DNA of 64,000 bases, taken from the NCBI GenBank assembly GCA_002840275.1, contig PHAB01000007.1:62001-126000 (forward strand), in the 5' to 3' direction. A program made the position numbers and the translations under genes. Below are positions 54,690 through 60,614 of the stretch, piece after piece (within the stretch, counting starts at the first letter, position 1; each line of letters starts with the position of its first letter). Under the pieces are notes generated by a model. That model had not been told where the DNA came from. It made no database searches and saw nothing but the letters and a program-made list of their open reading frames with translations. This DNA comes from Firmicutes bacterium HGW-Firmicutes-14. GTDB taxonomy: Bacteria; Bacillota; Thermincolia; Thermincolales; UBA2595.

Positions 54690-55627
54690 TTGACAACAAA
54701 GCCGCCACACAGGAATGGGTTATAATATTGATTGTCAACACCCTGGGGATGGGGGATGATGCTGCCGCCAGAAAAAACTCTGCACTTCCGTTTAAAGATG
54801 CCGATAAAGTTAACGAAGATGCTGCAGGCTATATCGCCATTGCCGTGGAAAACCACATTATTAACGGGTTTCCTGATGGGACATTCCAGCCCAACAAACC
54901 TGTGACAAGGGCACAGATGGCAGTTATGCTGGGATTGTCCACAGATGAACTGGGTATTCCGGGAGAACTCAAAAACAAGATAGCCGGCATTGTTCTCGAA
55001 GTAACAACAGAACCGGTGACAGTGGCTGATGATGTTTACGGCCAGGGGACAATCACCCTCGATTTCGGTGATGAAGATAAGGATGGGGTAAAATATCCGG
55101 TAGCTGAAGATGCCCTGATCTAAATAAATGATGAAGCTGCAGGACTTGGTGATATCGAACTGGGAACCAGGGCTGTAATTATTCTTGATGAAAACAGCCT
55201 TGTTGTCTACATTGAAATCGAGCCTGTGATAATCAAAGGGACAATCGACAGTGTGGATACAGTGAACAACAAGGTTTATGTTGTGGAGAGTACCCAGGAA
55301 TTTGAATGGGAAAGAAACAGGAACCGGTTAGTTGATCCGGAAGATGAGCAGGTCCCTGAAAATGAGCAAAACCGTAATGAGAATGATGAAGAAGCCCTGC
55401 CTGCCGAATATACTGTAGCTGCTGATGCAGAAATATTTCTTAACGGGGATGAGGCTGTACCGGCAGACCTTGAACAGGGTGACCATGTGAGAATGGTTTT
55501 AAACGATGAAGGTGAAGTGATTCTGATTAAGGCAGTTAACCTGATGAAAACATTCAGTGCCGGGAATATTGAAGATAAGGGAACCGGCACAGGGGACCAG
55601 GAGCGCCAGAATCGGAACCAGGGTTAA
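54690..55627 (+). pseudogene. Decayed SLH-domain surface protein
   Basis: One clear S-layer homology domain (LPFKDADKVNEDAAGYIAIA, then NGFPDGTFQPNKPVTRAQMA) is encoded at about 54780-54930, but no start or signal peptide precedes it. Homologous-looking residues run back to the stop of the upstream gene, indicating 5' truncation. A TAA at 55121-55123 interrupts the frame, which then continues open in the same frame to 55627 with the same acidic style. It is thus a remnant with at least two lesions. Its terminator appears split by the mobile element (55645-55657 and 60544-60557). Confidence 0.75.
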
Positions 55628-55666
55628 TCTGATTAATTTTATATAAAAGGGAGAGCCACATTCAGG

Positions 55667-55690
55667 CAACGGGTTCCGTTGTGAAGTTCA
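55667..55690 (+). repeat. Left terminal inverted repeat
   Basis: A 24-base repeat identical to the reverse complement of 60513-60536. Its first half is itself palindromic (AACGG-GTT-CCGTT), as in ends that bind a dimeric protein. Confidence 0.8.
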
Positions 55691-55743
55691 TTGTCATAAT
55701 CTGCGACTTCCTTTAGAGAAGCGGGAAAGCAGTTTATTGGGAG

Positions 55744-55773
55744 TAAAAAGCCTGGTTTGCGCCAGGCTTTTTA
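55744..55773. terminator. Bidirectional terminator inside left end of element
   Basis: TAAAAAGCCTGG (55744-55755) pairs with CCAGGCTTTTTA (55762-55773). It would shield the element from outside transcription, a common device near transposon ends. Confidence 0.8.
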
Positions 55774-55821
55774 CTTTGGCCGTGTTTAAAAAGTACTTGA
55801 TGATTTCGCATTGAAAATTCA

Positions 55822-55893
55822 GTGTGGAAATAAGGCTGAAGTTGCGTTTTTCATAAAACATGAATTGCAACTTTGGTGTGGAAATGGTAAAAT
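55822..55893 (+). promoter_or_regulatory. Promoter with nested operator-like repeats, restriction-methyltransferase gene
   Basis: TTGCAA (55865-55870), a 17-base spacer and TAAAAT (55888-55893) form a likely promoter. It overlaps nested symmetry: AAGTTGC (55839-55845) with GCAACTT (55867-55873), and TTCAT (55850-55854) with ATGAA (55860-55864). Direct repeats GTGTGGAAAT (55822-55831 and 55876-55885) flank it. This is the layout of a self-controlled restriction promoter; the binding protein is unknown. Confidence 0.55.
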
Positions 55894-55934
55894 AATACTG
55901 AAAACGAATCTGGCTTAGAAAGGGGGCATTTCCT

Positions 55935-58900
55935 GTGAACCAACAGTATGTTAACCTGTTTTGTGAGGAACTTCTTCAGGCTACAAAATCAGCCATTGAT
56001 GGTTCAGAAGAAGATTTGAGGATACGTTGTGAGCGTATCTTTTTAAACTTTCTCCCGCAGTGGGGAATTGAATATGACACTGCCAGGTATGAATTTCACA
56101 TGGGAAAGGCCGGTTTTACTGACAGCCTTTTTGGTCATGTTGTAATTGAGTACAAGAAATATGGTCTGCTAAAATCCGCTGCCACTTTTCTAAAGGCCGA
56201 AAAACAATTAAACAATTATCTTGAAGCAGAAGCAAAAAGAATTGGCAACAGTGTTGAGTCATATGTTGGCGTATTATTTGACGGCCAGCATATAGCCTTC
56301 GTCAGGTGGGCAGGCAACGAATGGCGACCTACCAAAAAATTGATATTTACTGAAGACACAGCAAAAATGCTGCTTCAATATATTCATTCTCTTTCATCTT
56401 ATCCCCTGGATCCCGCTGTTTTAACCCGATTACTGGGGCCAAACAGTAAGGTCGCAGCAGACTGTTTATCTTCACTATGGGATGCCTTTAAAATACGCAG
56501 ACAACGTACTGAAATGCTTTTTAAAGAATGGAGCCGCCTCTTTGGTCAGGTGACAGGTTTTGAACACGGACAAAATAAAGATCTCGTAGAATTTGCAAGA
56601 AACCATGGGGTTGACAACATCTGTGACCTGGATAAATTTATCTTTGTTATGCATACGTATTATGCTCTGCTAATCAAGTTACTGGCAGCAGAACTACTGA
56701 CTTATTTCCGTCATGGTCTCGGGTCATCCTATGTTGAACACCTTCTGACACTTAACCAAGATACACTTAAAGACGAACTGGAACACCTTGAAAATGGCGG
56801 AGTTTATAAGGATAACCTTATCAATAATTTCCTGGAAGGGGATTTTTTCTGTTGGTACCTGGGTGAATGGTCCGATCCTCTTGGTGACGCAATGAAGAAT
56901 CTGGCTGGGGAGATTGCCAAATTTGAACCGGCAACTTCAATTCTTGACCCAACAAGGATCGAAGATTTGCTGAAAAAACTGTACCAGAACCTTGTTCCTC
57001 CCTCCGTACGACACGATTTAGGGGAGTTTTATACTCCTGACTGGCTGGCGGAACACGTTTTAAATAAGGTTGGTTTCTCCGGCAAAGACAAACGCCGGAT
57101 ACTTGACCCTACCTGTGGTTCAGGCACATTTTTGGTTATGGCCTTAAAAATGCTGATTTCAGAAGTCCGCCAGAAAGAAGACGGGGCTGTTGTGCTGGAC
57201 CGTATATTAGATCAGGTTGTTGGTTTTGACCTAAACCCTCTGGCTGTAATAGCAGCCAGGACAAACTATTTACTGGCCCTCGGCGACTTAATTAATCAGA
57301 CCGACAAGCCTATTGAAATCCCCATTTATCTCACAGATTCCATTTTTGCTCCTCACCCTGTTCAAGAGGGTACGGAAGTTAACTATGTCTATAAGATAAA
57401 TACAATCCACAAAGATATTGATGTATCTATCCCTACGGAAATTATTGAAACAGGAAAACTGGGAATACTACTGGCTGCTGTAGAATACGCCGTCATGACC
57501 TATACAAAAGATAAAGAAAAGGCCACACTCTATTTGAAAAATTCCTTAAAACAAGAAGGACTTCCGGAAAAATATCTTTCACAACTGGTTATTATCTATG
57601 AACAGATTGCATACCTGCATACTAAAGAGTGGAACCGCATCTGGTGCAGAATAATCAAAAACCATTATGCTTCAGCATTTGTGGGTAAGTTTGATCTGAT
57701 CGTGGGAAATCCGCCATGGCTAAGATGGACCCGTCTACCGGAAGGATACCGTGAAACAGTTAAAGAATACTGCAAGCAATACGGCTTATTTTCAAAAGAT
57801 GTCTGGGTTGGTGGTATAGAAACAGATATTTCAACAGTGGTTCTGTATTCAGCGTGTGAACGCTGGCTGGCAGATAAAGGAACCCTTGCTTTCTTAATTA
57901 CCCGAACAGTTTTTAAATCAGAGTCTTCTGAGGGATTCAGGAACTTCAGACTTCTTGGTGAAGATAAGCCGCTTGGCGTCTATGAAGTTGAAGATATGAC
58001 TGATATTAAGCCCTTTGAAGGTGTGACTAATAAAACAAGCCTCATTTTGCTTAAAAAAGGCCGGAAGACAACCTATCCCCTCAAGTATGTGGTGTGGTCC
58101 AAAAAGAAACCCGGTAAGATTTCTGACAAAGCCTCCCTGCAGGAGGTTATGGCGAAAGTTAAACAAGAGCCTATTGTCGCCTATCCCTTGTACGAAAATG
58201 GCGGCCCGTGGCTGACCGTTCCTGCTGAAGAACTGGATACATGCAAAGCCATGATAGGGTCTTCTCCGTATCGCGGGAGGAAAGGTGTCTGCGCCGATTC
58301 CAACGGCATATACTGGCTTGACAATATGCAGCCGCAGGGCAAAAAAAGTATCAGGTTTACCAACAATCCTGGCCTGGGCAGAAATAGTCAGATTCCGAAG
58401 GTAAGTGATACGATCGAAAAGGAACTGGTTTATCCATTGGCCCGTGGCCGCGATATCAAACCATTCTGTTTTGATTATTCAGGGATGTGTATCATTCTGC
58501 CTCAGAAGGGCATGGACGGATTCCCGGAAGAGTATATGATGCAGAATTACCCGCATACACTGGAATATCTTATGCGGTTTGAAACAAATAAAGGATTGCT
58601 GTCAAAACGGAGTAGTTACCGCAGGTTCTCTGTAAGAAGAAACGCACCTGTTTATTCCATGTGGAACGTAGGCGATTATACGTTTGCTCCTTACAAGGTA
58701 GCGTGGAGCGAAATAAGCAGTGGATTGGTGTCTGCTGTATTGTCTGATATAGATCACCCTGTACTGGGGAAAAAACTGGTTATCCCTGATCATAAAATAT
58801 ATTTTGCCTATATGGAGGACGAAAACGAGGCCTATTATCTGTGTGCCTGTTTAAATTCTGACCCAGTCAGGGCTTTTGTTAAGGGTTACACGGAAGGAAC

Positions 58901-59090
58901 CCAGATTGCTGCGCATGTACTGGAGTATGTAAGAATTCCGAAGTTTGACGCCGGTAACAAAAATCATCTGGCTTTAGCCCAGATATCAAAGGATCTTCAC
59001 AACGAAGCATGTACAGACGATAAAATCCTCAAAAAAGCCACAAAGAGAATTAATGACCTGGTTACAATGATTATGGAGCAGGAAACCTGA
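55935..59090 (+). CDS. Type IIG-like restriction endonuclease/N6-adenine methyltransferase, transposon cargo
   Basis: The 1051-residue protein joins an N-terminal nuclease-like domain, with a PD-(D/E)xK arrangement (Asp63 and Glu72-Tyr-Lys74 in TDSLFGHVVIEYK), a long helical region, an N6-adenine methyltransferase domain and a C-terminal target-recognition region. In the methyltransferase, GEFYTPDWLAEHVL precedes motif I ILDPTCGSGTFLVMAL (about residue 388), NPLAVIAARTNYLLALGD follows, and the catalytic motif IV is NPPW (about residue 592). This is the layout of single-chain restriction-modification enzymes. TGATG joins its stop to the transposase start, so the two are translationally coupled. 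GAAAGGGGG precedes the GTG start. Confidence 0.85.
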   Translation: MNQQYVNLFCEELLQATKSAIDGSEEDLRIRCERIFLNFLPQWGIEYDTARYEFHMGKAGFTDSLFGHVVIEYKKYGLLKSAATFLKAEKQLNNYLEAEAKRIGNSVESYVGVLFDGQHIAFVRWAGNEWRPTKKLIFTEDTAKMLLQYIHSLSSYPLDPAVLTRLLGPNSKVAADCLSSLWDAFKIRRQRTEMLFKEWSRLFGQVTGFEHGQNKDLVEFARNHGVDNICDLDKFIFVMHTYYALLIKLLAAELLTYFRHGLGSSYVEHLLTLNQDTLKDELEHLENGGVYKDNLINNFLEGDFFCWYLGEWSDPLGDAMKNLAGEIAKFEPATSILDPTRIEDLLKKLYQNLVPPSVRHDLGEFYTPDWLAEHVLNKVGFSGKDKRRILDPTCGSGTFLVMALKMLISEVRQKEDGAVVLDRILDQVVGFDLNPLAVIAARTNYLLALGDLINQTDKPIEIPIYLTDSIFAPHPVQEGTEVNYVYKINTIHKDIDVSIPTEIIETGKLGILLAAVEYAVMTYTKDKEKATLYLKNSLKQEGLPEKYLSQLVIIYEQIAYLHTKEWNRIWCRIIKNHYASAFVGKFDLIVGNPPWLRWTRLPEGYRETVKEYCKQYGLFSKDVWVGGIETDISTVVLYSACERWLADKGTLAFLITRTVFKSESSEGFRNFRLLGEDKPLGVYEVEDMTDIKPFEGVTNKTSLILLKKGRKTTYPLKYVVWSKKKPGKISDKASLQEVMAKVKQEPIVAYPLYENGGPWLTVPAEELDTCKAMIGSSPYRGRKGVCADSNGIYWLDNMQPQGKKSIRFTNNPGLGRNSQIPKVSDTIEKELVYPLARGRDIKPFCFDYSGMCIILPQKGMDGFPEEYMMQNYPHTLEYLMRFETNKGLLSKRSSYRRFSVRRNAPVYSMWNVGDYTFAPYKVAWSEISSGLVSAVLSDIDHPVLGKKLVIPDHKIYFAYMEDENEAYYLCACLNSDPVRAFVKGYTEGTQIAAHVLEYVRIPKFDAGNKNHLALAQISKDLHNEACTDDKILKKATKRINDLVTMIMEQET

Positions 59091-60376
59091 TGGGTATTTT
59101 TAATTTGCCTGGATTCATTATTACAAACATTGAAGAAAATCCTCACGATTACCGTATTTCAGTATCTGCTGCAGAGAAACCTTCGTTTTGCCCTCGTTGT
59201 GGCAACCGTGGTATTATAGCACCACATGGGGGGAAGTTGCAGTTGGTTCGGGATATTGGAATCAATGGAACAAAGGTCAGTTTGCTTTATGACCGGAAAA
59301 GATACAAGTGTAAGAGTTGTGCCGCAACATTTTTGGAACTTAATGATAATATTGAGCCTAAAAGGCGTTTTACAAAACGCCTTGTTTCTTACATCGAGCA
59401 ACAATCCTTAAAGAAACCCTTTCTTCAGATTGCAGAAGAAATAGGAATCAGTCATACCATTGTTAGCAATATCTTTCGTGATTATGTAATAAAACAGGAA
59501 TCGAAGTACAAGATAGAGACTCCTCGTATCCTCGGGATAGATGAATTAACCGCGTCCAGGCCAAGAGCGGTGATATTGAATGTAGAAGAAAATACAATCA
59601 TAGAATTATTGCCCAGCCTTAATAAAGCAACCATTGTCGATTTTCTGAGGTCCCTGGATAACCCTTCGGGTGTGGAGGTTGCAGTTATAGACATGCGGCA
59701 GACCTACAGAGATGCTGTTAAAACTGTCTTGCGGAATGCAGACATTGTAATTGATAAGTTTTACGTATTAAGAGCGGCTAACAGCATTCTGAATAATATC
59801 AAAATTGACTTTAAAAACACTTTTACACCTGCCCAACAGAAACAACTGAAAAAAGATAAATATATGCTTTTTAAAAACAGTGATGCTCTCACTCTTCAGG
59901 AAAAACTCATTATGGAATCATGGTTCGGAATGTTTCCTCTACTTAAAAAAGCCTATGACCTTAAGGAAGACCTGGGGCTGGTATTTGAATCTGAAACGGC
60001 ATATGAGGGCAAACAGAAGTTGCAAGAATGGAGACAGAAAATAGGTAATGATACAGAGCCATTTATGAAACTGGCTGAAACAATGGAAAACTGGTGCCCT
60101 GAAATATTGAACTATTTCAAATATAAGGTGACAAATATTCATACAGAGAGCCTTAATAACATTATACGGCTGATTGACAGTATCGGCCGGGGGTATTCCT
60201 TTGAAGTCCTGAGAGCGAAGGTCTTGTTTGGAGTAATACATCGCATAGGTATTGCCGAATCAGAACCAAAATACGGCAATAGCAGCAAAGTTATTGATTA
60301 TGGTGTTGATATTCCGACGTTGGTGAAAACCTTAGGAGAAAATATATCAAAGGAACTACCACAAAAAAACAGATAG
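59090..60376 (+). CDS. ISL3-family transposase
   Basis: The 428-residue protein shows the ISL3 layout. An N-terminal zinc finger (CPRCGNRG and CKSCAATF) and a helix-turn-helix (QIAEEIGISHTIVSNIF) precede a DDE domain with ILGIDELTASRPRAVIL, VAVIDMRQTYRDAV, DIVIDKFYVLRAA and NIHTESLNNIIR. The usual Phe-His-Val after the second Asp is Phe-Tyr-Val here. It appears intact and full length. Its ATG lies in the stop of the restriction-methyltransferase gene, and no separate ribosome site is seen, so expression depends on coupling. A hairpin (60376-60402) starts at the stop. Confidence 0.92.
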   Translation: MGIFNLPGFIITNIEENPHDYRISVSAAEKPSFCPRCGNRGIIAPHGGKLQLVRDIGINGTKVSLLYDRKRYKCKSCAATFLELNDNIEPKRRFTKRLVSYIEQQSLKKPFLQIAEEIGISHTIVSNIFRDYVIKQESKYKIETPRILGIDELTASRPRAVILNVEENTIIELLPSLNKATIVDFLRSLDNPSGVEVAVIDMRQTYRDAVKTVLRNADIVIDKFYVLRAANSILNNIKIDFKNTFTPAQQKQLKKDKYMLFKNSDALTLQEKLIMESWFGMFPLLKKAYDLKEDLGLVFESETAYEGKQKLQEWRQKIGNDTEPFMKLAETMENWCPEILNYFKYKVTNIHTESLNNIIRLIDSIGRGYSFEVLRAKVLFGVIHRIGIAESEPKYGNSSKVIDYGVDIPTLVKTLGENISKELPQKNR

Positions 60377-60512
60377 GTCAGGGGTTTTCCCTAGCCCTGA
60401 CCGATAAAGCCGAACGCTCATGGATGACGAACATTGGAACCTCACGTACGGTTTGATGAGGAGAGGCTGAAATATTTTCAGCCTCTCACTCTAAAGTGTG
60501 AATTTTAAGTTC
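60376..60512 (+). other. Structured non-coding right end of element
   Basis: This region of about 137 bases holds no gene. A hairpin GGTCAGGG/CCCTGACC (60376-60402) follows the transposase stop. A second, GAGAGGCTGAAA/TTTCAGCCTCTC (60461-60472 with 60476-60487), lies before the right repeat. Between them AGCCGAACG (60408-60416) can pair with CGTACGGTT (60445-60453). The last part resembles domains V-VI at the 3' end of bacterial group II introns, though no reverse transcriptase is present. Its role is unknown. Confidence 0.4.
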
Positions 60513-60536
60513 TGAACTTCACAACGGAACCCGTTG
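60513..60536 (+). repeat. Right terminal inverted repeat
   Basis: Exact inverted copy of 55667-55690. Outside it lies ACCTGCAGG, the possible target duplication, then the arm GGGCCCTCCCTTTT of the interrupted SLH terminator. Confidence 0.8.
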
Positions 60537-60614
60537 ACCTGCAGGGCCCTCCCTTTTGTTGTCTGTTATTGCGAACGGCTAACCAGAAGTATAAATCTCA
60601 TTATGGGGTTCGTT

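Follow-up and report, generated by a model that had tools for sequence, protein, structure and literature searches.

The window (the 64,000-nucleotide stretch of assembly GCA_002840275.1, Firmicutes bacterium HGW-Firmicutes-14, that was analysed) contains a passenger-carrying ISL3 element, probably akin to ISPst2 and ISPpu12, in which exactly two intact co-directional genes, for a type IIG restriction-modification (R-M) enzyme and an ISL3-family transposase, lie inside the end repeats with no other substantial gene (Table 1). Terminal inverted repeats surround the transposase gene, as in the ISL3 family, and an extra gene with no part in transposition is present between the ends, as in passenger-carrying members of that family. 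The original prediction, that an R-M enzyme forms the cargo of an ISL3-type transposon, was supported by the enclosure of both genes and by a Sulfuricystis element of the same content. An ISPst2/ISPpu12-like transposon that has a type IIG R-M system encoded by one gene as its passenger, and which works by the mechanism set out below, is in our judgement a probable reading of the locus. Weighing against it are the single genomic copy, the lack of a near-identical element in the records searched, the missing target site duplication (TSD), a transposase on a long branch and a promoter match that does not clearly exceed chance.

Table 1. Coordinates of features in and around the window element (positions of the window).
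Feature	Position	Strand	Basis or detail
Left half of terminator-like host-locus hairpin split by the element	55644..55670	+	Joined-flank fold
Left terminal inverted repeat, limits of the original prediction	55667..55690	+	24/24 complementary to right arm
Transposon, 4862 bp, GGGTTCCG...to...CGGAACCC	55671..60532	+	Ends by comparison with 48 relatives
14-bp perfect hairpin just within left end, terminator-like	55742..55775	.	-25.2 kcal/mol for 55735-55785
22-nt direct repeat pair (55810-55831, 55864-55885)	55810..55885	+	82% identical
Promoter-like site TTGCAA-N17-TAAAAT, overlapping second 22-nt repeat	55865..55893	+	Promoter scan
Type IIG R-M enzyme gene, 1051 aa, GTG start	55935..59090	+	ORF, PADLOC, Pfam
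Nuclease motif D63-x8-E72-x-K74	56121..56156	+	Kept in 9 aligned homologues; invariant in alignment A4
Methyltransferase motif I, DPTCGSGTF	57105..57131	+	Homologue alignments
Methyltransferase motif IV, NPPW	57708..57719	+	Homologue alignments
TGATG stop/start overlap of enzyme and transposase genes	59088..59092	+	ORF calls
ISL3-family DDE transposase gene, 428 aa, ATG start	59090..60376	+	D151, D222, E353; zinc ribbon C34, C37, C74, C77
Hairpin immediately 3' of transposase stop, possible terminator	60377..60403	+	Fold of 60376-60500
Degraded group II intron 3' end (domains 5-6), within right end of element	60405..60494	+	RF00029, 21.6 bits
Right terminal inverted repeat	60513..60536	-	24/24
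Right half of split host hairpin	60533..60558	+	Joined-flank fold

The two arms of the inverted repeat are 24 nt long, complementary at 24 of 24 positions, as first reported, and 4822 nt apart; the chance of a perfect 24-mer inverted pair within 6.5 kb was about 1e-7 by our own estimate. The element limits drawn originally at the outer edges of these arms need adjustment, the true ends being more likely 55671 and 60532 than 55667 and 60536, because the ends of relatives read GGG...CCC (GGG...CCC or GG...CC in the 48 relatives compared). The outer CAAC/GTTG of the window arms is part of a palindrome that runs on into the flanks. The element is present as a single copy in its own genome (3.65 Mb), and when 199 related genomes were searched with the end-repeat pattern, exact matches were confined to the two window arms, while matches with two to three mismatches were scattered and somewhat more numerous than those to a reversed control. 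Searches of plasmid, phage, viral and genome records turned up no near-identical element; viral contigs yielded no close copies of the transposase or of the end sequence, and phage records did not contain the window element.

The enzyme had been described as a 1051-residue protein with a PD-(D/E)xK-like region and an NPPW motif, and both were recovered, the former as D63-x8-E72-x-K74. The PADLOC type IIG model PDLC03630 covered residues 2-1042 (E 3.5e-285), Pfam matches were to Eco57I and N6_Mtase, and the nuclease and methyltransferase motifs were conserved among aligned homologues, with minor variation in motif I. The full-length PDLC03630 match suggests that a C-terminal specificity region is also present, which would place nuclease, N6-adenine methyltransferase and specificity regions in a single chain, as in type IIG enzymes. 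Solved structures gave weak matches to the methyltransferase core only (RM.BsaXI, E 4e-4), and an AlphaFold model of the enzyme was discarded (mean pLDDT 40.7). The window enzyme is like the single-chain type IIG enzymes of PDLC03630 in its full-length match and in an identical order of nuclease and methyltransferase motifs, but the relatives examined were mostly plasmid or chromosomal genes without an ISL3 transposase. The original prediction had counted homologues widespread without the transposase as evidence against itself; they do occur widely, which, with the modular cargo described below, argues against a specific, obligatory pairing of enzyme and transposase but leaves the status of the enzyme as cargo intact.

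The transposase was assigned to the ISL3 family by sequence, on the protein and the element ends together. It matched DDE_Tnp_ISL3 (E 3.3e-50) as well as the ISL3 helix-turn-helix (HTH) and zinc ribbon (Pfam families PF01610, PF13542 and PF14690), and scored 241 bits with NCBIfam transpos_ISL3 (NF033550; cut-off 180), so that a DDE transposase with HTH and zinc ribbon, characteristic of the family, is present. The presumed catalytic residues D151, D222 and E353 and the zinc-ribbon residues were invariant in alignment A1 (six relatives, 37-41% identity), in keeping with the earlier description of the 428-aa frame as intact. In the transposase tree, from which ISPst2 itself is absent, the window protein stood on a long branch beside L074, being 37-41% identical to the group, and it reads IDKFYVLRAAN where the others read VDKFHVVRMAN, with substitutions at otherwise conserved positions. 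The contig of this nearest branch (L074:1-3078) was binned as a Methanomethylicia archaeon, possibly by mis-binning, and among its cargo is an ORF that by eye resembles phage antirepressors.

Searching 84,980 species genomes with the transposase alignment gave 80 relatives, to which plasmid records were added, and from these species genomes and plasmid records together 48 relatives were bounded by end repeats. In all 48, the order was left end, cargo and, last, transposase, with cargo and transposase in most cases sharing a strand and with the right end only a short way past the transposase; the gap between cargo and transposase was 20 nt or less in 18 of 47 relatives, and the two overlapped in 3. 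TSDs of 8 bp, mostly AT-rich and with 7 or all 8 positions in agreement, were present in 35 of the 48. The ends of the relatives (GGGTATCCGGATTT...) match the published ends of ISPst2 (PMC6305408) and CLJ-ISL3 (PMC7643977). The latter is an ISPst2 isoform with two passengers whose insertions carry 8-bp repeats; one Pseudomonas aeruginosa isolate had 6 copies of it and a subsequent isolate had 40 (PMC7643977). Because of these matching ends, and of the copy numbers of CLJ-ISL3, the passenger-carrying kind of ISL3 element is to be regarded as already known and capable of high mobility. That some ISL3-family members have passengers, as the original prediction stated, is documented for ISPst2/CLJ-ISL3 and ISPpu12 (PMC6305408, PMC7643977, PMC4447125), in which an ISL3 transposase and its passengers lie inside the ends as in the window; ends of about 24 nt of the GGGTATCCGG type occur in relatives of the window element, as in ISPst2/CLJ-ISL3 and ISPpu12. 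The passengers differ, being ArsR/permease or CzcD-type genes in the published elements and a type IIG R-M enzyme in the window, and the window element is further set apart from ISPst2/ISPpu12-type elements by its ends (GGGTTCCG) and by having no 8-bp duplication. In a Pseudomonas syringae plasmid element (L071:1846-6404), end-like sequences were seen internally at 2270 (+) and 2703 (-), a layout suggestive of an ISL3 element nested inside a second one, or of end repeats flanking individual blocks of cargo.

The search for the same gene order and ends elsewhere that had been proposed with the prediction was successful in plasmid pSTJ1 of Sulfuricystis multivorans (L061), where a type IIG gene and an ISL3 transposase gene, annotated merely as two genes, lie with nothing else between 25-nt ends (inverted repeat identity 96%) flanked on both sides by the perfect 8-bp TSD AAAACAGG. 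Its enzyme and transposase are 31% and 38-40% identical, respectively, to those of the window, and its two genes are separated by 23 nt, in contrast to the overlap in the window. The two captures were probably independent, because the window IIG enzyme groups not with that of L061 but with L185, a chromosomal enzyme without an ISL3 transposase within 18 kb. At the DNA level, the IIG gene of L061 shares 92-96% identity with genes on plasmids of Klebsiella, Raoultella, Aeromonas, Chitinibacter and another Sulfuricystis, the match barely exceeding the gene itself and no ISL3 transposase being annotated adjacent to it, and in the transposase tree the R-M elements were scattered rather than grouped. 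Judged by such sequence comparison, the cargo of this ISL3 group is modular and exchangeable. IIG genes near-identical to the L061 cargo on Enterobacteriaceae, Aeromonas and Chitinibacter plasmids (L062, L188, L190 and L191) were often found beside a small serine-type recombinase gene, which suggests several routes of transfer for this gene. That the window R-M gene merely adjoins an ordinary ISL3 insertion sequence, as the commonness of IIG genes without a transposase might suggest, is extremely improbable, given that both genes lie exactly within the end repeats, that the frames overlap and that the independent element L061 has the same content with a TSD.

Removal of near-duplicates left about 41 bounded elements, or about 44 with the window element and with L079 and L070, which were counted though not bounded by end repeats in the available DNA. 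R-M genes were found in 7 of these approximately 44 distinct elements and were of four kinds, namely IIG (window and L061), an N6-methyltransferase with a BsuBI/PstI endonuclease (L079 and L125), a D12 methyltransferase with a SacI endonuclease (L084 and L095) and type ISP (L070, broken by IS21). Toxin-antitoxin-type genes were present in about 10 elements, as HepT or HEPN with or without MNT (L065, L075, L107, L111, L109, L088, L121 and L106), AbiEii (L133) or Fic (L119), and the remaining cargo consisted of P-type ATPase, MerA-like reductase, MFS transporter or unknown genes. No relatives of HepT, HEPN, MNT, SacI, BsuBI, D12 or N6-methyltransferase were detected among 110 flanking ORFs used as control; HepT/HEPN genes made up 7 of the 93 ORFs in the cargo and none of the 110 in the flanks (Fisher p 0.004), a result that, the profiles having been built from the cargo itself, is a contrast with the flanks and not a genome-wide rate. 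Other defence-type genes do occur in the flanks of relatives. The composition of the cargo suggests repeated, independent uptake of restriction or toxin-antitoxin genes into the slot upstream of the transposase. In Alicyclobacillus montanus, a D12 methyltransferase is carried by each of two ISL3 elements that are nearly identical (L095 and L101), the SacI-like endonuclease having been checked in L095 only.

A broader proposal, that passenger-carrying ISL3 elements are general vehicles of R-M and toxin-antitoxin modules, which are kept against loss of the element and whose output would set that of the transposase through the gene overlap, is put forward tentatively. A rival to the favoured reading is addiction, in which undermethylated sites would be cut after loss of the element and the cells would die, hence the retention of such modules. 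The frequency of R-M and toxin-antitoxin-type cargo and the HepT/HEPN contrast favour this explanation, and R-M and toxin-antitoxin systems on mobile elements have been ascribed to stabilisation by postsegregational killing (reviewed in PMC3874152). We nevertheless consider it doubtful: dilution of a single-chain IIG enzyme lowers both activities together, so that killing is less expected than with separate restriction and modification genes, and single-chain enzymes have been argued to pass through a methylating, non-cutting state (reviewed in PMC12707154). Moreover, many relatives have metal resistance, efflux or unknown genes instead, and the control profiles were derived from the cargo. 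Addiction is accordingly plausible for the group but less so for a single-chain enzyme, which is not an obvious killer module.

Movement of R-M systems by insertion sequences or as composite transposons is already known (PMC3031569). The window element is similar in that R-M genes travel with transposase elements, but in those cases the genes lie between two insertion sequence copies or have been joined to one by rearrangement, whereas here they are within a single insertion sequence, directly before its transposase. No paper describing R-M genes as integral ISL3 passengers was found among openly accessible publications, and the coupling to a single R-M gene is one instance of a recurrent and apparently unnamed pattern. 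The pattern connects small insertion sequences with genes for defence or addiction, subjects that are generally considered separately; if it is a standing route for R-M and toxin-antitoxin modules between plasmids and chromosomes, it would help explain their spread. The window, L061, L084, L125 and L079 elements offer simple two-gene systems for asking if a transposon gains protection from a selfish module.

The TGATG overlap reported originally is real, the last base of the enzyme stop (TGA, 59088-59090) being also the first of the transposase ATG. In the mechanism that we favour for the passenger transposon, the two genes would probably form one operon, transcribed from a promoter near 55865-55893 between isolating hairpins, and ribosomes ending the enzyme frame would restart at the overlapping ATG; such translational coupling would tie the level of transposase to that of the methylase. 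The left hairpin may block read-through into the element, and, together with the hairpin near the right end, it could insulate the operon against transcripts that start beyond the element. Promoter-like matches in the region numbered 15 against a mean of 10.9, which is not clearly above chance. The 22-nt direct repeats upstream of the enzyme gene, spaced 54 nt apart and with the second overlapping the promoter-like site, are possible operators or transposase-binding sites. The transposase is predicted to bind the end repeats and move the entire 4.9-kb unit, and the enzyme to methylate host sites and cut unmethylated DNA, which would provide defence against phages and plasmids and could make loss of the element costly to the host. 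A single chain with both activities would be convenient cargo, as methylation before cutting would need no separate timing, and the exchangeable slot before the transposase has repeatedly received R-M and toxin-antitoxin modules.

Transposition of IS10 is controlled by Dam, and the methylation activity of the window enzyme might likewise regulate the movement of the element, for instance through marks placed at its ends or in the promoter. Co-expression of enzyme and transposase, together with the direct repeats at the putative promoter, would fit this possibility, which we nonetheless regard as very unlikely: relatives with TSDs have cargo without a methyltransferase, and the cargo is exchangeable.

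An 8-bp TSD, found in 35 of 48 relatives, was not present at the ends of the window element (CAGGCAAC / GTTGACCT), and no 8-mer match occurred nearby. Its absence is a property of the insertion rather than of the element's genes and does not affect the family assignment. The joined flanks form a hairpin with T's after it (-26.1 kcal/mol, z -4.1), a fold that none of the shuffled sequences equalled, and the flank duplex of -31.4 kcal/mol was equalled by 17 of 5000 random window pairs. The split hairpin lies just past the stop of the upstream gene at 55627, and the outer palindrome looks like the terminator of that gene. The simplest reading is that the element inserted in the loop of this terminator, either without duplication or with its later loss. 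The right neighbour, a hydrogenase small subunit gene, was found in the host family, where the left DNA was not conserved and no empty site was seen. A longer element, with the outer palindrome in its ends, was also considered and rejected, as it has no TSD either and the palindrome resembles the upstream terminator.

The single copy and the missing TSD would also be expected of a dead remnant or a recombination product, the duplication having disappeared by recombination between copies or by loss of a flank; CLJ-ISL3 hybrid elements with unmatched repeats are documented (PMC7643977), and the right end of the window element holds a group II intron remnant. Against this rather unlikely history stand end repeats matching at 24 of 24 positions, two intact frames and all catalytic residues, and the outer flanks pair as one hairpin, as expected of a single insertion site and not of two recombined ones. 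The intron match scored under the gathering score of RF00029. Intact relatives of this intron 3' end are present in the same genome (E 4e-9 and 8e-9; L002:707-781 and L003:26-99), the one in L002 shortly downstream of an IS200-type transposase gene, and in another genome of the same phylum (L198) an apparent reverse-transcriptase C-terminus lies upstream of the same intron motif.
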